The notes below the pieces were generated by a model that made no database searches, had not been told where the DNA came from, and saw nothing but the letters and a program-made list of their open reading frames with translations. A stretch of 64,000 nt of DNA, from NCBI GenBank assembly GCA_964035015.1, contig OZ036003.1, positions 2,662,531 through 2,726,530 on the forward strand, read 5' to 3'. The DNA is from Corallium rubrum (lineage: Eukaryota > Cnidaria > Anthozoa > Scleralcyonacea > Coralliidae). Positions within the stretch are counted from its first letter, which is position 1; each line of letters opens with the position of its first letter. Positions 4,069 through 64,000 of the stretch are shown here, in pieces. The position numbers were made by a program, and so were the translations under genes.

Positions 4069-7000
4069 GTGAGTAAGATCTGTTGTAGTCGGTGTTTATA
4101 CTAGAAATATCCTAATACATTTCTTTTTATTTCTTGTGTTATCATGGCCCCATTACTCAGAGGCAATTATGTACGTGTAAGGGTTAATAATTATCACGAG
4201 TATAATAAGGAATTTATCATCGCGAGTGAAGTTTAACTATCTTATCCCATGACTCTTTTGCAATGAAATCATTTTATTTTTTATTTATTTAAGTGCCCAG
4301 GTAGCGAAAATTTAGTCTGTCTTATTTGAAAAAACAACACATTTAAAATGACAAAGTTTTGCGTGTGTGTGTCCTGTAAAGAACTTGCGTTTCGTGCCGT
4401 ACCGCGTATGTTCTTTACACGCTGTGACGTCATCTGTGTCCTGTTACAGTACGCACACGCAAAAATGTAATGTATTTTATTTTGTTAAATAAAATCACTT
4501 GAAAATTCTACGTCTTTGGTGCTGTGGAAAGAACACATCCACATGCTTTCTTCAAGTTCATTTGGTTTGATAATTATGCACATGTGAAGTCAAGATGTTT
4601 AATTTGCATATTGAACAAACTGAAATATCTCAAAAAACGAAAACGAAAAACGGCGAAGGATGTTACTCTGCTATTTTAAATGTTATTTTAAATGTTCTTT
4701 CAATAAAACAGACGTAAATTTGGTTTCGTAGGCACCTTAATTTACCGAGAACGAAACTCCAAGAGTTCGAAATCAATATACTCATGGGTGTGCGATTAAC
4801 GGTGTAATATGTGATTATCACACTCTTTTCCAATTAAAATAATATGATAACCATTTATCATCCAGTTTATCAGACTGTATGCGTGCTACTCAGTTGGATA
4901 GAGGATTCAACGTGTCTGTTAGAATAATGAAATGTGGGTGTGTTATGAGATAAATCTAATTTTTTATAATGACTGGAGTATTTAAGCAGTGTCTTTTCTA
5001 CTACCGTCAGTAGTGATACCCCCCCATCGGGCGGCGGAAGTAATTAGTATGCAAACGGTGTGTAGCCCCTCATCTCATTAGTATTCATTTTATAGCGGCG
5101 CGTTACGTCAGCAAGCCCTAACCCTAATATCATTATTTATGCTACCCTCTTAACCCTAACTTTCCCCCCTAAACCATAGTTGTTACCCAACCCCCCGGTT
5201 TTCACTACGTCATACCGACTTATTATTTATTCATTCTCATTCTCCTGTGGGACCTCCTAACCCTAATCTCATTACGTCATTATGTCTCGTGCTCCTATAT
5301 GACCCCCTAACCCTAATCTCACTCTACCCCCCGTTATTCACTACGTCATATTCACCTTCTCAGGCCCCTAACCCTAGCTGTCACTCAACCCCCCGGTTTT
5401 CACTACGTCATACCGACTTATTATTTATTCATTCTCAGACTCCTTTGGGACGTAGTAACCCTAACTTTCCCCCCTAATCCTAGATGTTACTTAACCCCCC
5501 GTCATTCCCGATTGGTCTCCGACTGATTTCCGAAGTTACGTAAAAGGCACTGGACTTATCTCTTTATAACTAATAGAAACCAACTTTCATTTAAACCCTT
5601 AACCCTACTTATAGTCAACAGTTGTGGGACACGTATACGTACAGAGCATGCGTACAGTAAACTTTAACAAAATAGACGTTCTTTACAAGGAACTAAAGAG
5701 AAATTGATAGAGGCACTTTATATTTTTTATCTGAAACCTTGTCTCGATGAGTATAGAGAGTTTTTAGCAGTCTAAGTGTCTGAATTGGCAGAGCTCGTAT
5801 AGACTTAGATTAATAGCATATAATGAATATTATAATAGAACCTAAATATTCAATCACCCTAGAATCATTCCTAACTATACCTTTGTTTATAAGTGAAGAA
5901 ATCGTAAGTAGAACTGAAGATTTTAGACGAGGATTCAATTCGAAAAGCCGTAGGAGCCATTTTAAGTGACGGTATATAAACGAAATATTATTTGGCGTCA
6001 GGGTGGATCAGTGCACACATAGCTGCAGTGATATTTGAATATTTATCCTCAGTGCACGTGCAGGAGACAAAGGCCGCGGTCACACCAACGCTTGAGCTTT
6101 TGGATTAGCGTGCTTGCTAGTGACGTCAATCAAGCAAGTGCTAGAATTTGAGACGAAAACATCGCGGTCACACGAAGAAACTTATAGCATGCTTGTTTAA
6201 GATCGTTGACAGATAACCTGTTAATAGGGATTAGAAATATATGAGGCAAAATCTACACTTTGCTATTTCGAAACAGTTCTTAATGATGGAGGACGTTTCT
6301 TTGCTCTTGCTTTATTTCATGTATCAACGTATGCGCTGTTCAATCAGGCGCAGAGCAATAAATCGCAGAAGGAGACGAATGTTCCTTATCCTACAACGGA
6401 TCAAACAAAACTTGCTATTTCTACAAAAGCTTCAAACGGCAACATTAACACTGCTTGTTGCGGCCGCCAGGGTAGTTAACCCAAGACAAGAACGAGAGTT
6501 TTGGGCACTTCCTAGACCAAGACTTGGGTGGTTTGAGCTAATCCTTCAAGACGATCGTCAGTCTCGTTATTGGAAAGAACACTTTCGTATGCACAAACAT
6601 AGTGCACGACTAGTGAATCTAGTAGCCCCAATAATATCCAAGAGGGACACGGTTTTTCGAGATGCCATCTCCACGCCTAAACGAGTGGCAATTGCTTTGT
6701 GGCGTTTGGCAGGAGGTGGAAGTTTTCGGGACGTCGCTACTCACTTCGATGTGGGAAAGTCAACGTGCGTTACAATAACGAAAGAGTTTTGTCAAGCACT
6801 AAATCGGTTGACAATGAATTACATTAAATTCCCTTCCAATCGTCGTGAAACTACCAGGGCAATAGCACTGTTTCAAGATGAATGCAAAATTCCACAAGCA
6901 GTTGGAGCAATTGACGCGACACATATCGGAATTATAGCACCTGAGGAACCTTTTGATTATTTTGACCGGCATCATCGTTATAGCGTTATCATGCAGGCTG

Positions 7001-10000
7001 TAGTTGGAGAAAATCTAATGTTTTTGGACACTGCTATTGGTTATCCAGGCAGCATGCACGACGCTCGGGTATTACGTCAAAGTAGTATCTTCAGAAAAGC
7101 CGAGAATGGCGATATTCTCACAGAGCCTTTCGTTACTGTCAATGGAGTTAATGTGCGACCACTTCTACTCGGAGATGGGGCATACCCTCTTCTACCTTGG
7201 CTGTTAAAGCCTTATCCCATCAATGCAATACTCAACCGCTCTCAGCGGCGCTTCAACAAAACGCTCTCCTCTGCCCGATCGACTGTAGAACGGGCTTTTG
7301 GAATTCTTAAAGGGAGATGGAGAATTCTCCTTAAAAGACTGGATAGCAGATTTTATAATATTCCGGAAATTATTCTTACCTGCTGCATTTTGCACAATTT
7401 TTGTCAGGAGGCAGGAGAAGAGTTTGATGATGACGAAGTTCTACAGAGGATCATCGCTATTGAGAGAGAGTATTTGCAGACTAGGGATCAGCAGAACATT
7501 GCTCAAAATCCTGTTGCCCAAGATATTCGCCAGTCCATCGAGTTACATTTGATGTAGACTAATAATACATTTTTATCTGAGCATGTTTTCTATTTTGCTT
7601 TAAAATGCAACTTCATATACTTAAAAAAACTCGCTGCATAAATTAAGAAACCCAACATTTTATTGACAGGATATCCATGCAAAAACAAACAATGCATTTA
7701 CAATAAATTTGTAGATTTAGTTTTATGTACAAGATAACCCAGACTGTTGAAGCACTGTAAAATTGCAATTTATATATGTTAATAGATCACTTTTTACTTT
7801 TACATTTTCTTTTTAGTTATACACAGCAAAACGGATAATTATTAGGTACAGTTTTTCCATCTGAATACTATATGTGTTCAACAATATATAAAGATAAAAT
7901 ACGAAAAAAGGTGTTATTTTTATTTCTTCAAAAGTTCGGCCATACGTAAAAAGAATTCTTGATCCCGTCTCCTTGACTCTTCATCAAGCTTTCTTTGTTC
8001 GGTCTCCATTTTAATTAGTAGCTCTTCGCTTCGCGATTGCGCCCTTTCCATCATCTCCATCTGCGAGCTCTGCATTTCTACAAGCTTCTCGGTCAAGTCA
8101 ACCATAGCAGAAGCTGCAGTAACTCGACCTTTCTTAGCTTTTCTGCCTGGCTTTTGAGGTACTCTTTTCTTTCGTTTAGAGCCAGCTGCCTCTGGAGATG
8201 TAGTACTGCTATCAGATTCTACCGAACCACTATCAGAGTCTTCCTCTGAATCATTCACTGCGGCTTCACTAGTGTTGGGACTGTTGGCGGAATCACTACC
8301 AGCTGACTTGACTTGGTCGCTCTGTATTACGCCAGGCATTGTTACAACAGCTCGTGTACCCAGAACTTCGTCAAACGAGTCGTAATATTGACTGGTTTTC
8401 GGTGATCTGCCCGTCAGGTTATTGTTGCCTTTAGCTTCCTTATAGGCTTGCTTTAAATTGCGGATTTTGTCCTTGCATTGTTTCACAGTCTTCGGACTCC
8501 CAGCTTTATTTACGGCTATCAGTATATGACGCCATGCTTCTGTGGCTCTGCTGCTTTCCACCTCATCGATCCTTTCTTTCCATTCGTGGACAAGGACGCT
8601 GGATTGTTCTTCCCTCCATTTTGTCAAACCTTTGGCGCCAATTTTTGCACTGGTAGAAACTGAGTTAGGAGCTTCGAGATTTGAATTCGGAGTCTTGTCT
8701 GAAGCGATGGAGTTGTTCACATTTGATGTGCTAGTCGTGGCATTCTCAGATCCCATTGCAACTGCGGCGTAATGTAAACTTCGTGGTTGTGTAGGTGGTG
8801 GATGAGGGAAATAGGAACCGTACTGTGGACCACTGTTCATCCAACTGGAATGCGTAGCAGATCGTGAAAGGTTACCTCCAATATATGCATGATATGGAAA
8901 TGGGGATTGGTTCCCGTCATTCGATGTTGAATTCGGTGTTCTAGACATTGTGATCCTTTTAGAAAACTTTATTTTCAGAGCCGCGCGCTTTTTAATACGT
9001 CTTCTTGCCTACAATCGACTAGAGTGTATTAAAACTGTACAAGTGTGTATTTCGAAATTACCGCTTTAGGCTTAGATAAAAACTGGATTTAAGTATATGT
9101 CAAACTAAAACATTTTGATTGGCCACGTTGTCCAATCCACTTGACGTAACACAACCTAGCACAGCTCAAGCGCAGTCCATACCACGCTTGAAACTCGCTG
9201 CGGCGTCTTTGTAATTTCAAGCATATCGTATCAGTTTTCAAGCAAGCTCGGGTGTCGCTGCTTGATCGGTCACACTAGCTAGCGCGCTAGGAAGGTGATG
9301 TGTTGACAGATATGAGTCAAGCAAGCACGATTCTAGCGCTAGTGTGACCGCGGCCAAAAGAAAAACTCATTAGGGGCAATTAAGAGATTAAGCGCTTAGG
9401 CAGGTCTAGGCGAGAAAGTCATTAGCGTGTATTTTGCATAAGACAGAATTCACAATAATCAGTTTAAAATATTTATTTCGGTTTTCGTTCAAACATACAC
9501 ATATAAAAAGTTTTAGTAAGGTCTGCTTCTTAGATTATATTTAGGTGTTTTTATTTTAAAAGTAGCATGATAATCTTTCTTGTCTTCTGGTGATAATTGT
9601 GATACATCTTCTTTTGTCATGGGTAAATATTTTGATCTAGTCATCAATAGATGATGTTCATACTCTTCTCTATCATCTGGGGTCATCTTTGCCAAGTCTT
9701 TCTCTGTCGGGTCGCCCAAAGTTTCCCAGTTATGAAAGAAATTATGTTTAAGCGTCGGTTGTTCAACGGTAGGAGGCGGTGTTACAAAATAGGTTTTAGG
9801 TGTAGCAGGGAAACCCCACGGAAGATCGTCAGTTTCTTGCTTTATCTCCGGTGTCAAATTTGGTGTATTTTTCCGAGTTTGAAGACTATCTATTTTTATT
9901 TCTGTTCAAAATTATTTTCATTAACTCCATCGGTAATATATGCCTTGGGACACGCAGTACAGAAACCAATTGAATGTAAAAAAGATAAGGGAGATCCTAA

Positions 10001-13000
10001 GTTACATAATTTACAATGATGATTGTTATCCTGATAGAAATCTTTCCATGAACATTTAGGACACTGAAGTAAATATACAACACGTGCAATACTTTGACAG
10101 TGTTCACATTCTCCAGTAAGTTCTTCATTTCTCTCCGAGTCCTCTCCACTCCGTTGCTCCGCGTCCGACTCTTCTTGTTCAGTTTCGGAGTCAGTTTCTT
10201 CGTCTTCGCTTTCGGATTCCGGCTCTTGATGTTCGTGACGTGCCAGCATGGTCAAAACTTGAACATTTTCAATGAGACTTTTATCAATTTTCAAATTTGC
10301 TAGTCCTTTAACAAAAACATCTAAACCAAGGGGCTCGGGAATCTTGGCATCGTATTCTGTTAGACAATATTCTATCAAATCAGTGATATTTGTTCTTGAT
10401 ATAGTTTTTCCATTATATACTATTTCCCCTCTTGAATTCCACGTGAGAAGATTATGGGATATCAGCAAACTGTTTAGCAGAGAAGACACTTTCTCTTCAT
10501 CGATTTCGTAGTGTAAATGTGATATTATTTGTTGGACGCGATAATTAGCGAGACTTGTTTCTTCCATGATGTTCACGCTTAAACTGACTATCGTAGCAAC
10601 TTTTAGGTCTTTTATACCATTTCTGCGAGTCCTTCTAAAACAGGACCAAGTAACAGGCTTAGAAATCCTTCACCGTTTTGAACCAGTGTTTTCTTTTTTC
10701 GTCTAAAACTTTGTCGGGGGTCAACCAAAATGTGTAGATCGTCCTGGTAAGGGATAAGTGTTTCAATCACCTGACGAGGTAATTCGTAGTGCATTTGCCA
10801 TAAATTATGCGCACACTCGCATATACATCGAACCTGCTCAGGGCTCGCGGACTCCAAAACAGCTCGCTGTTGTACCGGTTTTGAAAGACACACAAACTGA
10901 AGAAATGCTCTCTGTTCGTTGTTAAACATCACTCAATGAAAGTAAGGTTGCAAATGATTGAATTCCGCCAGAGCATACCTATATATTTTGAATTTGTGAC
11001 AGATATCCTTGAGGGGTCTTGGACTGAAAATTGGGGAAATAAGGCCGGTAAGAGGAAGATAAGGAAGATAAGGGGAAGATAAGAGGAAGATAAGGAAGAT
11101 AAAGGGAAGATAAAGGGAAGATATAGGGAAGATAAGAGGAAAATAAGGAAAATAAATGGGAAGATAAAGGGAAGATAAGGAAGATAAGAAGAAGATAAGG
11201 AAGATAAAAGGAAGATAAGAGGAAGATAAGGAAGATAAAGGGAAGATAAAGGGAAGATAAGAGGAAGATAAGAGGAAGATAAACGGAAGATAAGGAAGAT
11301 AAGAGGAAGATAAGTGGAAGATAAGAGGAAGATAAGAGGAAGCTAAGGAAGATAAGGGGAAGATAAGAGGAAGATACGAGGAAGATAAGAGGAAGATAAG
11401 GAAGATAAGAGGAAGATAAGGAAGATAAGAGGAAGATTAGAGGAAGATAAGAGGAAGATAAGTGGAAGATAAGGAAGATAAGAGGAAGATAAGAGGAAGA
11501 TAAGAGGAAGATAAGGAGGATAAGGGGAAGATAAAGGGAAGATAAGAGGAAGATAAGGAAGATAAGGAAGATAAGAGGAAGATAAGTGGAAGATAAGGAA
11601 GATAAAGGGGAGATAAGAGGAAGATAAGAGGAAGATTAGAGGAAGATATGAGGAAGATAAGTGGAAGATAAGAGGACGATAAGTGGAAGATAAGGAAGAT
11701 AAGGGGAAGATAAGGAAGATTAGAGGAAGATTAGAGGAATATAAGAGGAAGATAAGAGGAAGATAAGTGGAAGATAGGGAAGATAAGAGGAAGATAAGGA
11801 AGATAAGAGGAAGATAAGTGGAAGATAAGAGGAAGATAAGGAAGATATGGGGAAGATAAGAGGAAGATAAAAGGAAATAGAAATAGGGAGGAAATTGAAA
11901 TAAATTGTCCGAATATGCTTTGAAACAATCATTTTACTCCTAAACGTCAAAGAGTGAACATGTACATCTGTAACACTTGTGAAAAAATGTTTTCGACAAG
12001 AGGCAATCTTCAACGCCATATTAAAAATTCCCATCAGGAAATTAATACAGGGCATGTTTCCTCAGTTATCAATGGAGCAACAGTCATGCAGCATCCATTT
12101 ACTTGCATTGTCGCTGGATGCACACAGAGTGGTAAAACAGTATGGGTGAAAACGCTTCTGGAAAACGCCAAAACTACGATTAATCCTCCTCCCGAACGTA
12201 TCATTTGGTGTTATGGACAATGGCAGCCCATGTATTTAGAAATGATCAAGACAATACCAGGCATCGAATTCTACGAGGGTATACCTTCCGACATTGACTC
12301 TGATAATTTTCTTGAAGTCTCTCAACGTAACCTGATCGTCCTCGATGATCTTATGGCTCAATCTGGGGGAGATAAACGTATTGCTAGTCTATTTACTAAA
12401 GGTAGTCATCACAGGAATCTCTCCGTGATCTATATTGTTCAGAATATATTTCATCAAGGCAAAGAAACCAGAAACATCAGCCTCAACGCACACTATATCG
12501 TGCTATTCAAGTCTCCAAGGGATAAGCAACAAATTTCTGTCTTGGCACGGCAGGTGAACCCAGGTCATGTCCATGAATTTATGAAGAGTTATGAGGAGGC
12601 CACAAGTCGCCCTCATGGTTATTTAATGCTTGATCTAAAGCCGACTACGGACGACGATCACCGCCTCAAGACCAATGTTCTACCTGGCGAAAATAGCTCC
12701 AGCCTGCAGCAACAGCTGGGTAGTTTCATACAAAAGCAATCCTATCAATTACCTCCGATCGTTAATGCCATGTACAATACAGAACAAAAAATGCAAGATA
12801 TTGTACAAGCGTCACAGTTAACACCTGACGAAAAGAGCATACTTTACTCCAATCAGCTAGGACGTTTTCTGACGTTTCAAAACCAACTGCGAAATCAGTC
12901 TCAACCTCTGGCTAGTTTTCAAACTCGGAAAAATACACCAAATTTGACACCGGAGATAAAGCAAGAAACTGACGATCTTCCGTGGGGTTTCCCTGCTACA

Positions 13001-16000
13001 TCTAAAACCTATTTTGTAACACCGCCTCCTACCGTTGAACAACCGACGCTTAAACATAATTTCTTTCATAACTGGAAAACTTTGGGCGACCCGACAGAGA
13101 AAGACTTGGCAAAGATGACTCCGGATGAAAGAGAAGAGTATGAACACCATGTAATGATGACTAGATCAAAATATTTACCCATGACAAAAGAAGATGTATC
13201 ACAATTATCACCAGAAGACAAGAAAGATTATCATGCTACTTTTAAAATAAAAACACCTAAATATAATCTAAGAAGCAAACCTTACTAAAACTTCTTTATA
13301 TGTAACCGTAATTTGTTTTGATATCTGTAAGTTTAAGCCAATGCCGAAATAAATATTTTAAACTGATTATTGTGAATTCTGTCTTATGCAAAATGCACGC
13401 TAATGACTTTCTCGCCTAGACCTGCCTAAGCGCTTAATCTCTTAATTGCCCCTAATGAGTTTTTCTTTTGTCTCCTGCACGTGCACTGAGGATAAATATT
13501 CAAGTATCACTGCAGCTATGTGTGCACTGATCCATCCTGACGCCAAATAATATTTCGTTTATATACCGTCACTTAAAATGGCTCCTACGGCTTTTCGAAT
13601 TGAATCCTCGTCTAAAATCTTCAGTTCTACTTACGATTTCTTCACTTATAAACAAAGGTATAGTTAGGAATGATTCTAGGGTGATTGAATATTTAGGTTC
13701 TATTATAATATTCATTATTTAACAATTATTTACCGAAGTCGAGATGATTATCGGTGAATATTTACCGCGCCGCGAAGCGGCAAGGTAAATATTCACCGAT
13801 AATCATCGAGACTGAGGTAAATAATTGTTTTAGTATAATTTCTTTCACAAAATTAATCAAACAATTAATATTCGCTTCCGTTATGAATATAATTTACTTC
13901 CTTCTTAAAAACGTAATGATCGATCACATGACACATGATCTGAAATCTGAATTCGAAAGCAGTTCGGCAAGTTCGTTTGACATTTCACAACAACATCGAG
14001 GCTAAGACGCTGAAAAACGTTTTAAAACAACAAGGATCATGCATAATAAAAATCTAACAATGTAATACGTTCAAGAATAGTTAGTTGTTGTTCATATTGA
14101 TGTTAAATGTGAATGAACATCCCTGGAAAGTACCAGATGGAAGAATTGATTCGGGACACCTCACACCATGTGCTTGAAGAATATTTGCCTCATTTCTGCA
14201 AAAGGATACAGTACCGTTTGCGACTGTTGGACTGCTTTCTGCTGGATGTTGACGAGAGGCATCTGGAGTTGGGATGATTGACGAAGACGAAGTGGCTGCT
14301 GTATTTTCTTCGCCATGAACAAACGAACTTAGCGTCGACGACATCTGCTTAAACTGGCTTAGAGTTGGTCTGGCGCAATAACTTTCTATGCTTGTATCGC
14401 TTCTGTGACCAGTTACGGCTTTAATCTTTCGTGTTTCAACGTTGTTGGACGATAAAACAGTAACGGTGGTGGCTCGCAGCGAATGGTTGGTATAGTAAGG
14501 CGATATTCCAGCTCTTTGTGACATATCTCGCATCATGTTGTTGAGCAAGTTATGGCCGAGTACTTTTTTCTCGTACCAAACTATTGCTTCGTTTGGGTTG
14601 AACCTTGAAGAAGGATGTCTTGGTCGCTGGAACAACACGTCCATGTCAGGATTTAGGTGACTTAAATACGCTTTGATTGTATTTACTGGACATCTTGGCG
14701 ATTTTGTGAGAGCAAAGACCTTGCCGTCCGAGTGGTCTTCCGTGCCTTCGAGACCGCCAGTGTGATTTTTGCTTGAAAGCATCGTCCCCGGTTCATCTTT
14801 ATTGAGCTCGAAGTACTCTTCTCCAGTGCCTGTTGTACAAAGACGTAGCATCGATTTCTTCATTGCCCTCTGGTTTTCACGACCTCGTTTGCCAAAATAC
14901 AAAGAAATGTAGAACCAAACTGTTTGCATTAAACAGCGAGGATCACGGGTTTCAGCGCAAGCAAGTTCGCCTTTCTCGAAAAGGAGTTGTACCGCTTCAG
15001 GTGTCAAGGGATTTTTGTGGACAGTTCCAGCAATTTTTCCAGTGCCCATGAGATGTTTCAGGTAGGAATGCAATGTTTTATTTGCTTCTTGAAAGGCGAC
15101 CGGGTCACAAATTGAGAACTTTTTGTTATATGGTGGTGAGCGAAGATGGCGATCCAACGCAGCTCGCAATGACATCAAGGTTGCCTTTTTGTAGTAAGAA
15201 CCATCTTTTTTTCTTGCAGACATGTAGAATTTTGATAGACATTGATTCAGGTCATCAATTTCCATGTTCTCGAACTCGGTTGTAAACTCGTTTTGGTGTG
15301 AGAACCATTCTAGTGTAGAAAATAGTTAAAAAAGACAAGTAATTTTGCCCATCGCTCTTTTTTGACAGTCAGTTGTAAATTGTCAAACAAATTGTTAAGA
15401 AATTAATTGCAAAAAGACTCCTTACCTTTGAAAAGCTTAATCCCATATTTTGTTGCTAGTTTTGTGTTTTGTGGAATTGCACTGTCCTTTATTTGTTCAA
15501 TTTCCTCAACAGAAATTTCTACAAAACGACTGTGGGAAGCCATTTTGAAAGCATTATTTACTACTCAGGTAGTAAATAATGCCTCAGATTTACTACTCAG
15601 TTAACCAATCAAATTGCTCGAAAGCCATTTTTTACTACTGAAATTATACTAAATGCTATTAATCTAAGTCTATACGAGCTCTGCCAATTCAGACACTTAG
15701 ACTTCTAAAAACTCTCTATACTCATCGAGACAAGGTTTCAGATAAAAAATATAAAGTGCCTCTATCAATTTCTCTTTAGTTCCTTGTAAAGAACGTCTAT
15801 TTTGTTAAAGTTTACTGTACGCATGCTCTGTACGTATACGTGTCCCACAACTGTTGACTATAAGTAGGGTTAAGGGTTTAAATGAAAGTTGGTTTCTATT
15901 AGTTATAAAGAGATAAGTCCAGTGCCTTTTACGTAACTTCGGAAATCAGTCGGAGACCAATCGGGAATGACGGGGGGTTAAGTAACATCTAGGATTAGGG

Positions 16001-19000
16001 GGGAAAGTTAGGGTTACTACGTCCCAAAGGAGTCTGAGAATGAATAAATAGATAGATAGATAGATAGATACTTTATTAAAAATTACCTGGCAGCCAAGGG
16101 CTGAATTGCGTAATTTACAATGATAAATAGTGACAATAAGATAAAATGTTCAAATTAAGTATTTACAATAAAACTTAGTATACAATGACTATGTAAGGAA
16201 GCTTATAATATAGAAAAAGGGGTAATACGTTAGGGATCTACAATACGTTAGAGGTCTACAGAAAAGCAAGAAGCAGGTATAAAAGTTCTTTTAAAACGGT
16301 CAGTGCGTATGCGCGGAAGATCGAACATGCGCTTACGTCTAATGTTATACTTGGCCTCATGAAATGATGGAAGTAATTTATATAATTTGTGTAAGGGGTC
16401 AGATACAATTGAGGCGAATAATTTGCTGCATTGTTCCTCACGTCTGTCATACAGAGAACTGAGGTTACACAAATCTAAATTCTGATGATATGACACTCCA
16501 GGTGATATAATGGATAGAGCCCTCTTCTGCACACGTTCCAAGTCGTCGCTTAAATAGACGGGAAGGGAATAATGGAAGACCGGTGAACAGTACTCTAGAA
16601 TTGATCTCACACAGGTGCAATAAAAATTCACGATATCTGAAACAGGAACCTTAGCGCGTTTCAGTAAAACTAAAAAGTACATACGTTTGTTTGCTTTCTT
16701 GATAGTTTCTCTAACATGGGCATTCCACAGCAGGTCGTTAGAAATCGTCAAGCCCAAAATTTTAGCATTATCAACGATATCGAGTTGTTTACCGTTAACT
16801 ACAATTGGAACAAAAACATGTTTTTCTTTTTTGAAATCTAAGACCATTTCTTTACACTTGTCAGCGTTCAGTTGAAACTTATGATCAGATGACCAGGATT
16901 GAACTGCAGAAACTGCGCAGTGGACTTGACTGCAGGATCCTCTTGGTACCACTTCGGCAATTGTTGTGTCATCCACAAATTTCCACGAACTCACATCAGA
17001 TACTTGAAGATCATTAATCATCAATAGAAAGAGCCACGGGCCAAGTTTGGTGCCTTGGGGGACGCCTGCGGGAACGTTACCCCATTCCGAAAAACAATCT
17101 TTAGATAGCTTCACGCGTTGTTGCCTGTTTAGTACGAAGTCAGAAACCCAGCGTGCAATACCATGGGGAATGGATAGACTAAAGATTTTCTGCACCAGAA
17201 GAGTATGATCAATTAAATCAAATGCCTTTCTATAGTCAAATAACACTAATCTCACAGCAGCACCCGTACCATCGGTAGCTTCCGCCAACTGGTGAATCAT
17301 GGATACTAGAGCTAGCACAGTTGAGGATTTGGGAACTGCGCCAAATTGGTCGGGATCAATCATTTCGAGAACAGCAGGGCCAATAAATAATGTAACCACG
17401 AAATCTTCTGCAACTTTAGAAATTGTGGAGGTCAGTGAAATAGGTCTAAGGTGCTTATTTACGTCTGTAATTGGTTTTTGTTTTGGAAGTGGAGTAACAT
17501 TGGCAAGTTTCCATGCTGACGGAAGCTTCTGCTCTTTAAATGAACTATTGATCACTGAACAAACTGGTTGTGCAAGAATTGACGCATACTCTTTCAGTAG
17601 CCAGTTAGGTACTCCATCTGGGCCTGAGGCTTTATGTGAATTGAGATTCTGTAGTGAAATCCGCACAGCCGCTTCGGGAATATCAATGGGATCCTGATCT
17701 TCTTCAAAAGGAGGGAGAGAGTCGAGAGGATGGTATGATTGCATGGATTCCAAAAAAGCAGCGTTTATCATGTTTGCAATTTCTACAGTTGGTTGGTTAC
17801 TGCAGACTTCATCAACATGAAGATGAGACAACAAATCGTCCGAACTGGTGGTAGGTACCATACCAGAAATACGCTTGATCTCTTTCCACCACTGTTTCGG
17901 CTTAGTTTCTTTGAGGTGATGAACCTTCGAGAAAAAGAATTTGCTCCGACAAAGTTTTCTTTCACGGTTTACAGAGTTACGATAATAACGATAGAGCTGC
18001 ATATCTCCTTTAGAGAAGGCTTTCTGACGCAGTTTGACTAGGTTCTTAAATTCTGCAGTAATCCACGGTGGATCATTATTGTGGAGCTTAACTTCCTTGA
18101 GTGGCATAATCGTATCAAAACCGACTGTAATAAAGTCGACCAATAACCGAAGTTTGACTTCGCAACAAGCCGCAGATTCGATGATGGACCAGTCTATCGA
18201 ACTCAGATATCTCCCAAGTTCTTTCTTCCTACTAGGTCGGGTATCCCTCCTTGAAACTGTTCGTCGACTGGAGGTGTTAGAAGATTTCTCTTTGGCGTAA
18301 AGAACAATAACATTATGGTCAGACAAGCCAAAAGGTGGATACATTACCAAGGTGTTCTTGCCGTAGAACTGTGGGATGTTTGTAATAATTAGGTCTAGAA
18401 TCTGGTTGCCTGTAGTTGGAAATGAAACTAGCTGTTTCATTCTGAACTGCACCAGAAGGCGATCGACTTTAAGGCGGTTAAAATCACCGACCAGCAAGAT
18501 CCCGCAGCCAGGAAAAAGTCCTTCTATGGCAGTAAGTGAAGAAGTCAAGAAGTCGAGTATCACTTGATCATCGGCACTGGGCGGATGGTATACCGTGCCC
18601 ACAACAATACAAGGTACACCACGGGGAAGCCTCGTTGGTCTTACGTAAATCCAGAGGACTTCTATATCTGGGCGATGAAGGTGATCCAGAATCTTGAATT
18701 GGATCGAGTTCTTAATATATAGGCAAACACCGCCATGTAGGCCCGAGGTACGATTCTTACAAATTAAATTATAACCGGGTATATGAAGGCATTCGTTACT
18801 AATAAAGTCGTTCAGCCAAGTTTCTGTAAAGGCAGCAAGATCGGGTTTCTTAGCCCTGACAAAATTTCTCACTTCGTCTATTTTAGGTGCTAGAGACATT
18901 GTATTTGACAAAAGTAGATTGGGAACAAACATTCCTATGCGGTTTTCGACACAAGGGATACGAACGCAGTTGGAGAGATTGCGTAACCGATTATGATAAT

Positions 19001-22000
19001 TCGGAATACGAATTTGCCAACCCAGATCAGGGACCAAATTATTTATAGGTTGGAAGTTGTCTGTTGTGTGTGATGTATGAGCTCGGTCGCTCCTAAGTTC
19101 GATGGTCTCATTTAAGATCGTGTTATACGATGAACGAGATCTAAATAGTTCAGCCAACTGCTGGTTTGATTGTTCACAGATTGTTTCCGAAGAGATTTCT
19201 GACTGCGTTTGAACGAATGTCGCTGTTGCGGTTTGTTGTTGGTAAAATGAACCCGGGGAAAAACCTGGTTATGTATCTTATGATGTGCTCTGTTAGACAA
19301 AGGTCTCGATTGTTGTTGCTGCGATCGCCGTCGATCGGTCATAATTTGGTCTTCACATTTTTGAGTTGGGTGTTGACGTTTATGTTTCGCTATTTGGTCT
19401 TCACATTTTTGAGTTGAGTGTTGACGTTTATGTTTCGCTATATAGTCATGCAATTTGATCCTCCTGGGAAACATGATTAGTTGATTGTACGACACTGAGT
19501 TGTTGCTGATTGGTTACTGGTATTTCGATCAATATAGGATTTTCATAACATCCTAACTTTTTGTTACGCCTTCACTTAACGTCGAAATTTGCTCATCAGT
19601 GGAATATTGTTGATTGGCAGTTGGGATTTCTTTTGGTGTTGGATTTACATAACTTCCAATCTTCTTTGCCATGGCCTCGCTTTGCCGTTTGGCATCTGAG
19701 ACTTCAATTAGCGTGGGATTTAAATAACTACTTGCCTTCTTTGTCGCGTCTTCGCTAATTAGCAGCGGAATTTGCACATTAGTGGGATGTTGTTGAATGG
19801 TAATTGGTATTTCTTGCAGTGACGAATTTACATAACTTCCAATCTTCTTTGCCACGTCCTCGCTTATCTTCGATAGTTTTTCACCAATTGAATTGATTTG
19901 GTGATTTATTTTGGATTCTAGGATAGTCATGTCCAACTTTATGCCTTCAACATCGGGCGATAGTTCCACACATTTGCATTGAAGTGTAGCCGTTGTTGCT
20001 TTAACTGCGATGTTCTCGGTGATGTTGTGACCCACGGGTTCATGCCGGTTGTTAATTATTTTGAGCAGAAAGCATGTTGTTTTGTTGGCCTCTTTCCCTT
20101 CAACAGCAAGGACTTTCTTATTCTTCCACCATTGTATTGTCACATCATTATTAATAAAAACCTTTTTTTCTCCTCCCGGAGAGGACCAGTTTCCTTCAAG
20201 TTGTAGTATGTCTTCCACGAAGGTCTTCAACGATTCATGGTCGCCGTCCCATGCGAGTCGTAAATTCGCTGTCATCTTCGCATCAAGTATTAGTTAACTT
20301 TATATAAAAAAACACCTTTAGCTCGACAGTGATTTATTAGTTGAAATACTTTCACCAATTTTACCAAGATTTCCCTATATAATTTGGCAATTTATACAGA
20401 GCAATTTTTGACACGTCTTCACTCCTTTTAATAATAAGTTAATTATAATAATAAATTAAACTTTTAATAATAAATAATAAGTCGGTATGACGTAGTGAAA
20501 ACCGGGGGGTTGAGTGACAGCTAGGGTTAGGGGCCCGAGAAGGTGAATATGACGTAGTGAATAACGGGGGGTTGAGTGAGATTAGGGTTAGGGGGTCATA
20601 TAGGAGCACGAGACATAATGACGTAATGAGATTAGGGTTAGGAGGTCCCACAGGAGAATGAGAATGAATAAATAATAAGTCGGTATGACGTAGTGAAAAC
20701 CGGGGGGGTTGGGTAACAACTATGGTTTAGGGGGGAAAGTTAGGGTTAAGAGGGTAGCATAAATAATGATATTAGGGTTAGGGCTTGCTGACGTAACGCG
20801 CCGCTATAAAATGAATACTAATGAGATGAGGGGCTACACACCGTTTGCATACTAATTACTTCCGCCGCCCGATGGGGGGGGGGGGGGGGGTATCACTACT
20901 ACCGTCCTTTCTTGAATTGGTGCTGCTCTTGAATGGATTTTTGTAAATGAGCATCCTTCACACAAATAAGTACCTATTGATTAGATTTTTACAAGTAACC
21001 CTCTTGGTAAGTTTTAAATACTGTGGAGGAAATTAAGTCGGTCTTATCTAAAAGAACACTTTAAATGGCAAAGTAACATATTTTGCAATTTTTTCGTTTC
21101 TTTCCTTTGTTGTTGAGATATTTATCAATTATTGGACGAGTCTGAGCAAAATATCATGATTTGTCAGTGGCGAGCTGCTAGTTATTTGCCGATGCCGAAG
21201 GCAGAGGCAAATAACTAGCAGCGGGACACTGACAAATCATGATATTTTGCGATAGACGAGTTCAATAATTGATTTATCATTCATAAAATAGTTAAAAATT
21301 TGAAATGCATGAAGTAAGAGATCGCCACTCTTCTCTCTGTCTTCGGCATACTAAAATCTTCGTAAAACTTACTTTTTGTTGGCACGAGTATGCTTTTTAT
21401 CTTACTAAAACTTCCTTTTCAATATTTCTTTTCTGAAGTACATTGTCGTTATGGATGCTTCCAAATACTCTCGATTATTTCCTCGGATAACTGAAGAACT
21501 AGCCGCCATGTTTACGAAAATTATCATTCACTTCGTTTCTATCCCGCATTCTGATTGGTTAATTTACCTGCAAATAATTTTATGAGCATGCGCACTAGCG
21601 ATAACGCTACTGACGGCAAATAATTTTCGTAAACATGGCGGCTAGTTCTTCAGCTATCCGAGGAAATAATCGAGAGTATTTGGAAGCATCCATAACGACA
21701 ATGTACTTCAGAAAAGAAATATTGAAAAGGAAGTTTTAGTAAGATAAAAAGCATACTCGTGCCAACAAAAAGTAAGTTTTACGAAGATTTTAGTATGCCG
21801 AAGACAGAGAGAAGAGTGGCAATCTCTTACTTCAGGCATTTCAAATTTTTAACTATTTTATGAATGATAAATCAATTATTGAACTCGTCTATCGCAAAAT
21901 ATCATGATTTGTCAGTGTCTCGCAGTAACTCGTCACTGACAAATCATGATATTTTGCTCAGACTCGTCCAATAATTGATAATTATTTGCCGTCAGCAGCG

Positions 22001-25000: not shown

Positions 25001-28000
25001 TTCTATTTTGTTGGTAGGAGTTGATTTTAAGCATTAAATCACACTCAATAGTTTATTTTTTTAGAAAATCTTTTTTTTTATTTAAGTGATTTAAATCGGT
25101 GATTTTTCTTTTTTTTAAATTTTGATTTAACTCACGATTTAGGTGATTTAAACCAACGTGATTTAAATCCGAAACCCTGTTATGTAGAAAACATAGGCGC
25201 CAAGCCACCCTAATATCGCGGGTTTCAAATCACATTTAACATGATAAGTAAGGAAATCCTACCAATTGTGACAACCTTTTTTCTCATTCTGAGGTAATCG
25301 AAGTATCTATGGATTCGGCAGAAAACGCATCAGATGTTCCCTTAGCAACTGTCATGCCATGGATGCTGTTATACAGAATTATACGAAGGTAAGTTTGTGC
25401 TGTTGTTCTAGAGTAAAGATATGTTTTAGCGGATTTAACCATGTAGTTGCTTGTACACATAAGTCAAATAGGTTTTCCTCCCTCCGTAAAATCAACACCT
25501 ACATCTTAGCTGTGATCCGTAGTCTGAACTGTGTCGTATGGCGCGTGCTTGGGGCGCCTTTGATATGCCTCCACACCGCCACGCTGATCTGCTTCCTTCG
25601 CAATGGCTTTCCGAAACGTCTCCCTTGGACGAGTAAAATCGTCTGGCAGTTTGAGAAAACGATAAAGTTGCCCCACGGCAATGCAAGTGAAAAGGGTTAA
25701 TATCTTACCGATACTTTGGGGGAGGTATGGAATACAGTAAGTGTATCAAAACCACGTTTGATTGTTTTTTCAATATTATACCAACAATTTGTAAGTGTTT
25801 ATATTTAAACCCTTGCACATATTTTAAAAACCTCATTTTTGTGATTGAAGTTTTGAATTTTTATAATTTTTACCTAGCAAAGAAGATGGAAACGAAGTAG
25901 AAGAAATGGAAGTTGATGAAGTGTCATCAGTAATCAAAATGCCCGAACCTGACACTTCCGAATCCCCAGCAACTATTCAAGAAGCCCCCGCTCTCATGGC
26001 CCAAGTTAGCCTTCCTTTGTCATTGCAATTTCTTCGTCTGGGACATGAAGCACTTGGAGGGTAACTGCTTTCTTTATTGTTAATGACGATTTTTTAATGA
26101 TGGTGATGGTGACGGTGTTGATCGTAATCATAATGGTGATGCATGGTGATGGTGATGGTAGTGGTAATGGTACTATAGTAAGATGTGGTCGTTAGCAGGA
26201 AGTGGTAGTTACAAGTACTTGGGTATATTGCAGTTTGATCAAGTTTTGCATTAGAAAATAAACGAAAAACTGAATTAAGCTCAAGAACACCTCTTGCGTG
26301 TATTGAATGCATTGAACTCTCTCTCCTCCACAGAGGCTCGGAAGCGAAGGCGTGCGGGCGAGGGAGAAGACGCGCGAGGAGTGATGAGAAGAGGGAAAGG
26401 AAATGAGCCTCTGCCAGATAATGTCAATATGGCGCTCAAATTCCTGGTGGACTAGGCGCCAGACTCGGAATTTCAATATATAATCAAATTTAATTTACGG
26501 AATTGAAAAGTTGGAAATCAATAAATTGTGAACAAAGACTCTACTCGAGAATGGTAATATCGTTACACAAGGACAGCTGGCCGCGTTACGAATTTTTTTA
26601 TTTGTTCCGCAAGTGATTTCCATAGAACAATTCAGAACTAATAACGTCCAGAACAATATTCTAGACTTATTAGATCTTGAAGAAAACATTGTACTTCGTG
26701 CAAACTATCGTCCCATTTGTTAGTTGACTGAAATCTCTTCGTATTCGGTTCGTTTGCCGACTTCGAATTCGGTGTTCAAAATTTTTCTGCAACTAATATC
26801 GTCCTTCTCCAGCGTACTTGCACTTATTGCCAAGCATTGTATATCTTCTTCTGCGTTATGGTTATCGTAAAGCTAGAGAATAAAGAAGTTTAAATTAATC
26901 GAAATATAGTTTACATCCAGCTAATTGATTTAAAATTGCAGACACGTAAATGACAGCAAGAATCAAATAAATACATGTAATCGCACTGTTTCTTCCAACC
27001 TTGGATACTTAGACCCTGAAGGGAGTGCTGAATTTCTCCCACATTATCTGGCAGAGGCTTCTTTCCTCTTTTTCAACCTTCTGGAGGTTCTCCGCGCGCT
27101 TTACGATTGCCCGCGCGTCTGCGACTAACCAGAATAATTAATAGAAGCCTCTGCGGAGAAGAGGTAACTGCATGGTCTCACTCAGGTCTAAACGTTGTTC
27201 TCGCTATATTGATAATGTTTTTCATTGTTATATGTTCTTGTAAATTCAGACTTTTTTCTAATTTTAGTCGTTCGTGGTGCATCAATAACGATGGAATGTT
27301 CCTGCTTCTCTATGTTGACGTTTTTCTGAACAGTCTGAAAGAAAAATCGCCTTCATTAGAACAAAATCGAGACGTATGTCTGTTTTTAATGACAACTTAG
27401 TAGTAGTTATGCTCTCTCACATTACGTTGCGTTATTCCATTTTATTTGTTTTCATTCTATTTTATTTTTAATTTTATTTAATTCTAGTTTATATTTAGTC
27501 TATAATAGTCTATAGTCTATAGTCTATAGTCTATAGCCCATATAGCCTATATAGTCTATAGTCTAGATACAATTACAGACCTGGAGCGAGGGGAATTCCA
27601 AAATAAATTACCCCGAGGGATATTTCATCTCCAGGGGTTATTTTTTGTGGAATACCCCGAGCGAAAGGTCTATAATTGATATATTATACCGAAACATATT
27701 AATCTTTCAAAAAAAAAAAGCTGAAATAATGTTAATAAAGTTCGCTTAGCTTAACTTTTGGCTTAGCTTAAAGTTTGTCAGCTTTTCATTGTCTGTTTCC
27801 ATTCTGTTGATATTAACCCGGTATTAAGTGTCATTTCAAGGCTTCTTGGGATGCGTTCTTTGCTGCTTTCTTTGTATTTCATGAATTCTTATTTTCTTGT
27901 AACCTAACAATCTTCTTGTCAACGTCGGAATGTTCAAGCGAAACGTCTTCTTGTTCCACCAAACTCCGCCATTGTTGACAGCTCGTGAATCGTGCGTGGC

Positions 28001-28806: not shown

Positions 28807-28897
28807 GTTTCAGAAATTGCAGCTTGATGTTAGTAATAATTGTTAGTTGTTTGCTGTACAAGCTGTGTTAGTTAGTAATACTCAGAAAAAACTCTGA

Positions 28898-28967
28898 GCT
28901 CTGAGCGAATCGAACCCACAACCTTCTGAATACCAGCCAGACGCTCTAACCATTGAGCCACCAGAAC
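28898..28967 (-). pseudogene. tRNA-Thr-like unit, T-stem damaged
   Basis: Inverted counterpart of 29020-29092 with the same acceptor, D and anticodon arms, but two bases are missing after TTCGAT so the T stem cannot close. Confidence 0.7.
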
Positions 28968-29019: not shown

Positions 29020-29092
29020 GTTCTGGTGGCTCAATGGTTAGAGCGTCTGGCTGGTATTCAGAAGGTTGTGGGTTCGATCCCCGCTCAGAGCT
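29020..29092 (+). tRNA. tRNA-Thr(GGT)-like cloverleaf, probably repeat-borne
   Basis: 73 nt that fold completely: acceptor GTTCTGG/TCAGAGC (7 pairs, with G-T pairs), D stem GCTC/GAGC, anticodon stem TCTGG/TCAGA with loop CTGGTAT (anticodon GGT), T stem GTGGG/CCCGC around TTCGATC. The pol III A box TGGCTCAATGG and B box GGTTCGATCC are intact. Its inverted partner and repeat context argue for a tRNA-derived element rather than a working tRNA gene. Confidence 0.6.
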
Positions 29093-29253: not shown

Positions 29254-29657
29254 AGGGGAATTCGATAAAATTTTACACCGAGGTATGATATATCCCGAGG
29301 GCGAAGCCCGAGGGGTAATGTTTCATCGAATTCCCCGAGCGAAAGATCTATAAATTATATATTATACCAAAACATATTAATCTTTCCAAAACAAAAAGCT
29401 GAAATAATGTTAATAAAGTTCGCTTAGCTTAACTTTTGTCTGCTTTTCATTGTCTATTTCCATTCTGTTGTCGTCTGAAGGCTTCTGGATGCATTGTTTG
29501 TTGCCTTCTTTGTATTCCCTGAATCCTTATTTTCTTGTAACCTAACAATCTTCTTGTCCACATCTGAATGTTCCGGCGAAACGTTTTCTTGTCTCGCCAA
29601 ACTCCGCCATTGTTGACAGCTTCGTGAATCGTGCGTGGCGTTCACGCGTGGTACACT
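29254..29657 (-). mobile_element. Shortened hairpin recombinase element, copy 2
   Basis: Hairpin head at 29254-29337 (ggggaattcgat against atcgaattcccc, tip gggcgaagccc). The body parallels 27566-28020. On the minus strand AACAATGGCGGAGTTTGG (start about 29608) opens MAEFGETRKRFAG, and the neighbouring frame continues DVDKKIVRLQENKDSGNTKKAT, the N-terminal signature of this recombinase family. No catalytic domain remains. The right edge abuts the 11-bp minisatellite. Confidence 0.72.
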
Positions 29658-31178
29658 AATATTAATATTATATTAATATTATATTGATATAATATTAACA
29701 TTAATATAATATTAATATAATATTAATATATTATTAATATAATATTAATATAATATTAATATAATATTACTATAATATTAATATAATATAATATTAATAT
29801 AATATTAATATAATATTAATATAATATTAATATAATATTGATAAAATATTAATATAATATTGATATAATATTAATATAATATTAATATAATATTAATATA
29901 ATATTAATATAATATTAATATAATATTAATATAATATTAATATAATATCAATATAATATCAATATAATATCAATATAATATCAATATAATATCAATATAA
30001 TATCAATATAATATCAATATAATATCAATATAATATCAATATAATATCAATATAATATCAATATAATATCAATATAATATCAATATAATATCAATATAAT
30101 ATCAATATAATATCAATATAATATCAATATAATATCAATATAATATCAATATAATATCAATATAATATCAATATAATATCAATATAATATCAATATAATA
30201 TCAATATAATATCAATATAATATCAATATAATATCAATATAATATCAATATAATATCAATATAATATCAATATAATATCAATATAATATCAATATAATAT
30301 CAATATAATATCAATATAATATCAATATAATATCAATATAATATCAATATAATATCAATATAATATCAATATAATATCAATATAATATCAATATAATATC
30401 AATATAATATCAATATAATATCAATATAATATCAATATAATATCAATATAATATCAATATAATATCAATATAATATCAATATAATATCAATATAATATCA
30501 ATATAATATCAATATAATATCAATATAATATCAATATAATATCAATATAATATCAATATAATATCAATATAATATCAATATAATATCAATATAATATCAA
30601 TATAATATCAATATAATATCAATATAATATCAATATAATATCAATATAATATCAATATAATATCAATATAATATCAATATAATATCAATATAATATCAAT
30701 ATAATATCAATATAATATCAATATAATATCAATATAATATCAATATAATATCAATATAATATCAATATAATATCAATATAATATTAATATAATATTAATA
30801 TAATATTAATATTAGATTATTATAATATTAATATGATATTAATATAATATTAATATAATATTAATATAATATTAATATAATATTAATATAATATTAATAT
30901 AATATTAATATAATATTAATATAATATTAATATAGTATTAATATAATATTAATATAATATTAATATAATATTAATATAATATTAATATAATATTAATATA
31001 ATATTAATATAATATTAATATAATATTCATCTAATATTCATCTAATATTCATCTAATATTAATCTAATATTAATCTAATATTAATCTAATATTAATCTAA
31101 TGTAATGTAATGTAATGTAATGTAATGTAATGTAATGTAATGTAATGTGATGTAATGTAATGTAATGTAATATAAGTA
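29658..31178. repeat. 11-bp AT minisatellite with a homogenised central variant, grading into TAATG
   Basis: 29658-29942 and about 30786-31020 are TAATATTAATA units. About 29943-30785 consists of some 76 TCAATATAATA units that differ at one position. From 31021 come TAATATTCATC (3) and TAATATTAATC (4), then about 15 TAATG units to 31178. Confidence 0.95.
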
Positions 31179-31181
31179 TAG

Positions 31182-61300: not shown

Positions 61301-61500
61301 NNNNNNNNNNNNNNNNNNNNNNNNNNNNNNNNNNNNNNNNNNNNNNNNNNNNNNNNNNNNNNNNNNNNNNNNNNNNNNNNNNNNNNNNNNNNNNNNNNNN
61401 NNNNNNNNNNNNNNNNNNNNNNNNNNNNNNNNNNNNNNNNNNNNNNNNNNNNNNNNNNNNNNNNNNNNNNNNNNNNNNNNNNNNNNNNNNNNNNNNNNNN
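61301..61500. other. Assembly gap (200 N)
   Basis: Exactly 200 unknown bases; the satellite stops on the left and unrelated sequence begins on the right. True gap size and continuity are unknown. Confidence 1.
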
Positions 61501-62597
61501 AAAGTTCTTCTTGCCTTTAGTTGCTCACTACCTACAGGCTACAACCACAATTTCAACCATTTCTATACAATTTGCGCCTGTTCCACGTTCGTAACAGTTC
61601 TTTCGACCTGCTCTCTGGTAATCGCTTTTCCCACTCTGTTGTTGGACTCCATAAAGACGCACATTTAGTGGCGACAGTACTGATATAAAGAAACTCTTTA
61701 TACACACCTACTCACAAAATGGCAGCCATTTTGATTAGTTTTGAACTTGATTGGAAAGCAAGACTTTGATTGGTTGTCCATAATTATATTAAGCCGAGCT
61801 CTGGTGCCAAGGTTGCTTTGACGACAGTATGGCCTGGGTTGTTACCCGTGTTTTCAATTGAGAATATCCTGGATAGTACCCGTTGACGATTGTGTTCAAC
61901 GGCTGTATTACTGCGGTAACAACTGATATTTGCTTTATTCAGCGAATATTTTTTTTTTGAAAGTGATGTTCTTCCTCTCAATATCGGTATACATAATTAT
62001 CTAATCGTCATTTTAAAAACAAGAATAATCATGGACTATGACTGCACGTAACAATCCATGGAAAAACTGAAACTCTATAGAGAGCCACCTTCAAAGTGCA
62101 AATTGTAGCGAAATCCAATATGTTTTAATCGGAGCACGAGCGCGATGAAAATCTTTGTCAGTCGCAGCAAAAATCATCCGTTTGAACAGCGCTTTAGATT
62201 ACATGGGAATGTGTTGACCGTGTTTAGTTCATACCTTAAAATACATTATTTTATTACAAAACAATTTAAGTAATTTTTAAAACGTGAGCATCAGTATTTT
62301 ATCAGATTTAAAAAACGAGGCGATAACCGAGTGTTTTAGGTCTGATAAAACACGTACTGCGAATGTTTTGACTAGCTTCAAAAACGACCAATTTTCTAAG
62401 TTCATTGGCGTAGTAATTTTGAAAAATAATGTTGTCTAAGTCGAAAAAATCAAACCACCAATGTAGGGTTGGATCGGATTGGATAGAATAGGATACCATC
62501 AAGAAAGTTTAAGTATAGAAGAGCAAGGCTTGAACGAGATCTAGGAAGGCTTATAACGACCGAAACAAAATCAAATTCGCGACCTTTAACTCTCAAC
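61501..62597. other. Sequence after the gap without recognised genes
   Basis: No exon, RNA or element end is convincing. 62294-62353 is a small hairpin (gtattttatcagatt against ggtctgataaaacac). Confidence 0.6.
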
Positions 62598-62801
62598 AAA
62601 CGAACGAACGAACGAACGAACGAACGAACGAACGAACGAACGAACGAACGAACGAACGAACGAACGAACGAACGAACGAACGAACGAACGAACGAACGAA
62701 CGAACGAACGAACGAACGGACGGACGGGCGGGCGGACGGACGGACGGGCGGGCGGACGGACGGACGGACGGGCGGACGGACGGACGGACAGGCCGGCAGG
62801 C

Positions 62802-62849
<48 letters not shown>

Positions 62850-63323
62850 GGACGGACGGACGGACGGACGGACGGACGGACGGACGGACGGACGGACGGA
62901 CGGACGGACGGACGGACGGACGGACGGACTGACTGAAGGACGGACTGAAGGACGGACTGACTGAAGGACGGACTGACTGAAGGACGGACGGACTGAATGA
63001 CGGACTGAATGACGGACGGACGGACTGAATGACGGACTGACGGACTGAATAACTGACGGACTGACGGACTGACGGACGGACGGACGGACGGACGGACGGA
63101 TTGAGTGATGGACTGAGTGACGGACGGACTCACTCGTTCACTCACTCACTCACTCACTCACTCACTCACTCACTCACTCACTCACTCACTCACTCACTCA
63201 CTCACTCACTCACTCACTCACTCACTCACTCACTCACTCACTCACTCACTCACTCACCAGCAGACAAACAAACAAACAAACAAACAAACAAACAAACAAA
63301 CAAACAAACAAACAAACAAACAA

Positions 63324-63370
<47 letters not shown>

Positions 63371-63381
63371 CTCACTCACAA

Positions 63382-63445
<64 letters not shown>

Positions 63446-64000
63446 ACAAACAAACAAACAAACAAACAAACAAACAAACAAACAAACAAACAAACAAACA
63501 AACAAACAAACAAACAAACAAACAAACAAACAAACAAACAAACAAACAAACAAACAAACAAACAAACAAACAAACAAACAAACAAACAAACAAACAAACA
63601 AACAAACAAACAAACAAACAAACAAACAAACAAACAAACAAACAAACAAACAAACAAACAAACAAACAAACAAACAAACAAACAAACAAACAAACAAACA
63701 AACAAACAAACAAACAAACAAACAAACAAACAAACAAACAAACAAACAAACAAACAAACAAACAAACAAACAAACAAACAAACAAACAAACAAACAAACA
63801 AACAAACAAACAAACAAACAAACAAACAAACAAACAAACAAACAAACAAACAAACAAACAAACAAACAAACAAACAAACAAACAAACAAACAAACAAACA
63901 AACAAACAAACAAACAAACAAACAAACAAACAAACAAACAAACAAACAAACAAACAAACAAACAAACAAACAAACAAACAAACAAACAAACAAACAAACA
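62598..64000. repeat. Tetranucleotide repeat mosaic
   Basis: Consecutive period-4 arrays: CGAA (62598-62716), CGGA/CGGG (62717-62790), CAGA (62802-62848), CGGA (62849-62928), CTGA/AGGA mix (62929-63126), CTCA (63128-63257), CAAA (63265-63326), CAAG (63327-63370, 63383-63443), CAAA (63444 to the window end). Long Ser/Arg/Val and Phe/Val/Cys/Leu reading frames here are artefacts. Confidence 0.98.

Follow-up and report, generated by a model that had tools for sequence, protein, structure and literature searches.

A hairpin-ended tyrosine-recombinase element in a Polinton of the coral Corallium rubrum

We analyzed a window of 64,000 nucleotides of Corallium rubrum (Cnidaria, Anthozoa; GenBank assembly GCA_964035015.1, contig OZ036003.1, positions 2,662,531 to 2,726,530 of the forward strand), in which the right arm of a Polinton transposon is interrupted by a short element encoding a tyrosine recombinase (YR). 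The element consists of a hairpin, a terminal inverted repeat (TIR), a body with the recombinase gene, and a second TIR, a build that is unusual for kin of CryptonA (features in Table 1). The TIRs are perfect over 13 bp (TTAGTATAATTTC and GAAATTATACTAA), the hairpin lies outside the left one, and neither repeat was mentioned in an earlier note on this DNA made from its letters alone. Since the gene is on the minus strand, the hairpin stands at its 3' end. The earlier note had indeed placed a terminal hairpin on that side and a 32-bp palindrome on the 5' side of the gene, and both were recovered. The copies of TTTACTACT are possible binding words of the recombinase. Binding words common to the hairpin and the right end were considered as well and rejected, because their Smith-Waterman score was matched by 41 of 300 random slices.

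Table 1. Positions in the window of the element, its parts, its target and the Polinton that carries it.
Feature	Position	Strand	Remarks
Whole element	13719..15652	- (= recombinase gene strand)	1934 bp; empty site; two further copies of 1-1934 at ~100%
Terminal hairpin, 53-nt arms	13721..13829	+	strand with GA/GA loops and G-T pairs
Left GA-AGTC-GA	13735..13742	+	half of two tandem GA/GA internal loops
Right GA-GACT-GA	13808..13815	+	partner half of the two GA/GA loops
Left 13-bp inverted repeat	13830..13842	+	directly inside hairpin
Right 13-bp inverted repeat	15640..15652	-	exactly at border; ends TAA
Recombinase exon 1	15426..15543	-	start at 15543
Recombinase exon 2 with stop codon	14081..15309	-	DUF3504 and Phage_integrase domains
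Palindrome, 32 bp	15551..15582	.	just upstream of start codon; 14-bp arms, 4-bp centre
Three direct copies of TTTACTACT	15556..15639	+	at 15557, 15589, 15631, near right end
Target triplet TAT (TAN rule)	13716..13718	.	left of element
Polinton	5009-20900		both ends AGTAGTGATACC; 6-bp target duplication ACCGTC

The left arm of the Polinton lacks the insert and preserves the empty site, which reads TATTCATTAT directly followed by ATGCTATT, with the insertion point at 5819..5820. When the flanks of the element are joined (13659-13718 and 15653-15712), they match positions 5760-5879 on the reverse strand with 99.2% identity over 120 bp; the arm pieces compared amount to 654 bp and are 99.4% identical. 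This match bears out the exact borders, with 0 bp duplicated or deleted, that had been claimed for the insert, with one nuance: the triplets at the two ends, TAT (the target's, left) and TAA (the element's, right), share TA. The third base is not duplicated, since the T of the empty site belongs to the target and stays on the left, and the A on the right is the element's own. A true 3-bp target duplication was considered for this pair of triplets and rejected, as only TA is common to both. In the same comparison, a Harbinger insert in these arms has a target duplication of ~3 bp (AAA) and an insert of a long interspersed nuclear element (LINE) one of ~15 bp. Hence, comparing the arms is able to reveal a duplication at the element. 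Flanking target duplications are not evident among the copies read at letter level.

The recombinase is the sole long open reading frame (ORF) of the element. It has 448 residues and no internal stop, and its 116-bp GT-AG intron (15310-15425) separates two exons whose junction is backed by a full-length coral relative, P0009. The open frame and this relative support the intact two-exon enzyme of the earlier note, and the matches to DUF3504 and Phage_integrase, together with the protein relatives, support the kinship with Cryptons proposed there. The closest relative among the protein matches listed is a Paramuricea clavata entry (96% identical over 81% of the query), and all seven of the listed matches that name an organism are from corals, stony or soft. 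In an alignment of 27 sequences, R181/R183, H315, and Y350 are invariant and R318 is nearly so; we take these residues to have the R-H-R-Y catalytic roles. The genome carries three near-identical intact copies of the recombinase. A sequence search of the PDB returned XerA only (E 4e-4). Peptide patterns of the recombinase found no relatives in IMG/VR or GTDB contigs, none were found in phage records, and two DNA words of the element found none in viral contigs.

To place the element among its relatives, we used 30 sampled stretches of the genome, totalling 300 kb, and searches of the whole assembly. The sample contained two relatives, both in stretch L014, where homology extends from the hairpin through the junction into TTAGTATAA; one of them is a 304-bp element with a left border identical to that of the window element. 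The other, copy B (L014:5124-5231), retains the right half of the family hairpin (GA-CCCC-GA), its left half being replaced by another foldback. The whole-genome search (474 Mb, 312 contigs) scored 40 of 566 candidates, so that all its counts are lower bounds. It returned at least 81 matches, including two more full copies (~100%), a copy whose parts lie 9.1 kb apart, one internally deleted copy, at least 20 copies limited exactly to query 1-124, the hairpin with its TIR, at 90% identity, and diverged YR relatives. The exact word at the junction of hairpin and TIR occurs 794 times in the genome (0 for the reversed control) and the left-end word 1,658 times (control 1). The TIR word is about twice as frequent as the word spanning hairpin and TIR (1,413 vs 666; controls 0). 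Among the first 100 TIR words listed there are 26 inverted pairs less than 1 kb apart, with the hairpin on one side in 25 cases, on both sides in none and on neither in one. Hence, the hairpin is a constant, one-sided part of the element: it is integral to one end and not a passenger.

In 25 of these 26 pairs the repeats are too close to enclose the recombinase gene, and at least 104 recombinase matches stand against the 1,658 left-end words. The outcome for the earlier note, which had named a hairpin found apart from the recombinase in most copies and with its own borders as a refutation, is thus mixed: the hairpin apparently does occur apart in most copies, but the same TIRs accompany it, as in non-autonomous copies, and it does not have borders of its own. 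Relatives of the recombinase retain the hairpin end, or the left-end word (at 54% identity), in the same place. On C1 below 23.7 Mb, two of the three recombinases lie 373 and 403 bp from a left-end word.

The arms of the hairpin are 89% complementary, and its folding z-score is -16.8, with none of 200 shuffles as good. The window hairpin and another one from L014 (copy A) have in common a stem, a GA/GA loop, 4 bp, a second GA/GA loop, and a stem. Between the two, 17 of 47 pairs vary, 8 on both sides, 7 on one side, and 2 being broken. Each of the seven one-sided changes creates or removes a G-T pair, as seen on the strand that is read from the left end, and sliding the partners by 1-3 columns leaves at most one double change. 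We then built a covariance model from these two hairpins and searched 364 kb, which gave 18 matches with E <1e-5, or 16 loci after removal of two opposite-strand matches of the same hairpins. In the 15 that were folded (L014:5124 excluded), GA/GA accounts for 27 of the 36 two-by-two loops, a share that is partly selected, as the first two GA/GA loops raise a hairpin's score under the model; third and inner loops, too, show GA/GA. For comparison, 84 palindromes of at least 70 nt that the model did not match have GA/GA in 10 of 68 loops (better strand), and 12 model-matched ones have it in 22 of 28. Four of those 10 are in a palindrome at L003:3997-4147, where GA/GA forms four of the five two-by-two loops and which probably represents another family of the hairpin class.

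At 10 of the 16 loci, the window's included, the word beside the hairpin end recurs in inverted orientation. The inverted copy ends at a distance of 270-690 bp from where the hairpin starts (1,934 bp in the window), and at least five different TIR words are involved; these are raw counts, not corrected for chance recurrence. The signature is thus common to several repeat families in the genome. Further hairpins of the class occur in the window itself. Two, at 21122-21286 (+) and 21858-21981 (-), stand inverted at the ends of a unit of ~860 bp (21122-21981), just beyond the right end of the Polinton, with an 84-bp perfect inverted repeat and TAN before both hairpins. Another, at 27567-27693, follows TAG; 1.7 kb downstream of it is a 13-bp word with one mismatch that may be its partner.

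The 16 loci also reveal a rule for the target. In 14 of them, TA occupies positions -3 and -2 of the left border (background 0.075, nominal P 2e-14; the stricter count is 13 of 15, as L014:5124 was included although its left half is not the family's), and TA is found at offsets -2 and -4 in none. Genome-wide, TAN precedes 1,440 of the 1,658 left ends, copies that are not mutually independent. The right ends that were read have TAA at the border or within 3 nt of it, the border being ambiguous by 1-3 nt in several, and the right flanks vary among copies. When spacings of up to 25 bp were allowed, seven end-to-end junctions were found, six of them at spacing 0 (reversed control 1), and at L023 a head-to-tail pair adjoins within ~2 bp. 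The six junctions without spacer are compatible with the joint of a circle or with insertion beside an end.

The arrangement of the third base is that of a recombinase swapping a short core and not the outcome of a DDE transposase. In Tn916-type coupling, a YR likewise leaves a donor-derived core at one end of the insert and that of the target at the opposite end. The hairpin in turn resembles the attC sites of integrons in structure; integrons are bacterial, and their integrase lies outside the cassette. According to the accessible parts of the papers cited here and below, attC is also the palindromic site of a YR system, bound on one strand and with unpaired bases at set spacing, and the extrahelical bases of its folded bottom strand guide the integrase (PMC3053210). 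Vibrio SE elements share with ours a YR, inverted end motifs, the absence of a duplication, and a donor core on one side with the target's on the other, but their core is of 6 bp, against 3-bp TAN/TAA here, and a terminal hairpin is not mentioned for them in the parts concerned (PMC9345347). CryptonA elements are likewise short, carry a single recombinase of DUF3504 kin with no further gene found, live in cnidarian hosts, and have non-autonomous copies that outnumber the autonomous ones (PMC3212892). The first Cryptons had short terminal direct repeats of 4 or 6 bp, the substrate of recombination; according to the same text, TIRs and long direct repeats are both absent from Cryptons, and the 2011 survey by Kojima and Jurka found no terminal repeats in those of animals (PMC3212892). 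In contrast, our element has TIRs, a hairpin at one end, and the TAN/TAA rule. Beside its ends, TAN on the left and TAA on the right have only TA in common. Its TIRs are at odds with what has been published on animal Cryptons, and we therefore do not class the element as a typical CryptonA. No description of a hairpin-ended or TIR-ended animal Crypton was found in the literature searched, which included the accessible parts of PMC5753468 and PMC3495686 and left Repbase and subscription journals outside.

Some of these features could have another origin. The chief rival is a rolling-circle element of the Helentron-like HINE type in which a captured Crypton recombinase is mere cargo and which is moved by the Rep-helicase of another element. 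Helentrons, HINEs, and DINE-1 elements also have inverted repeats, one of them offset from the terminus by a palindrome, no target modification, and many non-autonomous copies; in HINEs the subterminal inverted repeats are of 12-15 bp and the palindrome is near the 3' end (PMC4067079). In gene direction, the order TIR, gene, TIR, hairpin fits the non-autonomous elements of Helentrons, and the genome has at least 150 matches to Helitron Rep. However, our element has a YR in place of the Rep-helicase, of which an ORF and domain scan found none within it, and its 53-nt-arm hairpin reaches the terminus. HINE sites are T-rich and have two or more Ts at either end (PMC4067079), whereas the element has a TAN site and varied right flanks. 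None of the six Rep matches on C1 below 23.7 Mb is less than 9.7 kb from a listed left-end word, in contrast to the two neighbouring recombinases of that region, and recombinase and ends (or left-end word) stay together down to 54% identity. We therefore regard such a capture as unlikely.

It is still harder to explain the element as a DDE transposon that duplicates TA and carries a YR, comparable to MarCry-1_FO, a fungal composite with TIRs (PMC3212892). TA does stand on both sides, but on the left it is the target that supplies the third base of TAN, TAA lies at or within 3 nt of the right border, a TA duplication would require an extra substitution, and the element has no long ORF besides the recombinase; this origin seems highly improbable. 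As for the hairpin, its complementarity might be maintained without any function by palindrome correction (template switching), which likewise gives paired changes on both arms. Yet under correction one would expect the GA/GA loops to disappear, and they remain where the pairs next to them have changed. Nor would correction lead to a preference for G-T pairs on a single strand, which makes it a poor explanation. We initially favoured a separate miniature inverted-repeat transposable element (MITE) that had inserted 2 bp into the left TIR and duplicated TTA or TTTA, as TTTA is present on both sides of the hairpin and the TIR is exactly at the border if the hairpin is omitted. Hairpin, junction, and TIR are common to hundreds of copies, which refutes this possibility and leaves it practically no weight.

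We consider it probable that the element is an autonomous transposon related to CryptonA in which the hairpin is an integral end, which is moved by its own recombinase, and which has many non-autonomous copies beside it. That the recombinase is the mover is something we infer: it stays with the ends across wide divergence, and the TAN rule, the swapped core, and the zero-spacer junctions fit site-specific recombination. The element would insert after TAN and leave no classical duplication, since the triplet on its left remains that of the target and the TAA on its right is its own. Most likely, the recombinase would join the right end to the left one, giving a circle or else a single strand in circular form, and these ends, once joined, would recombine at TAN. 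The TAA of the element's own right end could serve as such a target and give rise to head-to-tail copies without spacer. By analogy with attC, the hairpin, whose structure is kept on one strand with fixed unpaired bases, would probably be the substrate as a folded single strand, in the way integron integrases read attC; a structured RNA of the same sense may be an alternative.

Several observations weigh against this interpretation, beside the Helentron-like order of parts, the abundance of Rep matches, and the selection in the loop count. A single empty site was read letter by letter, and the pair-change test compares two sequences under a structure taken from the window's own hairpin. No left-end word lies less than 24 kb from the recombinase at C1:11976534 (35% identity), the matches listed for the exact junction word do not include C1:18447073, and six intact recombinase copies (65-66% identity) have no hairpin match among the 40 of 566 candidates scored. 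The 30 sampled stretches contained no YR, so that the other hairpin families are tied to recombinases by layout only. We propose only tentatively, and with less than even confidence, that there is a large animal superfamily of YR transposons that move via a folded single strand, with a one-ended hairpin of fixed tandem GA/GA loops as an attC-like site that is read on one DNA strand, a eukaryotic counterpart of integron cassette recombination. One class of recombinase might then drive many families that differ in TIR and stem and have loops, TAN target, and layout in common, which we hold to be just as conjectural.

Polintons are recognized by terminal inverted repeats and a 6-bp target duplication, and both were found for the one at 5009-20900; the ORF at 11954-13288 within it gave a weak match to an A32-type ATPase (E 2e-5). 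This Polinton is short, with outer arms of ~1 kb, and is broken by the Harbinger (~6072-9355), the LINE (~16055-20465), and the recombinase element; within it, 9355-9888 matches 12913-13470 in inverted orientation. Around fourteen tandem units of 2,053 bp, at least 99.95% identical in self-comparison, occupy 32574-61300 and end at a 200-base N gap (61301-61500). Short-unit tandem arrays, with steps of ~11 and ~8 bases in self-comparison, lie at 29657-31180 and 62595-64000. At gathering cut-offs, Rfam identified only two tRNA-like genes, in divergent orientation, at 28897-28967 and 29020-29092 (44.8 and 58.8 bits).

The ends and target rule of animal Cryptons were hard to define. In the present case, an empty site and counts over the whole genome define the ends, so that it becomes possible to reconstruct the reaction and put it to the test. 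If a eukaryotic YR element carries a strand-specific hairpin whose mismatches are conserved, this would connect Cryptons with the folded-strand recombination of integrons, and it would account for repeats with a hairpin at one end that annotation would label as MITEs. Recombinases of this kind gave rise to human genes such as ZMYM2, QRICH1, KCTD1, and KIAA1958, many of which regulate transcription (accessible parts of PMC3212892), which makes the ancestral DNA targets of these recombinases of interest.
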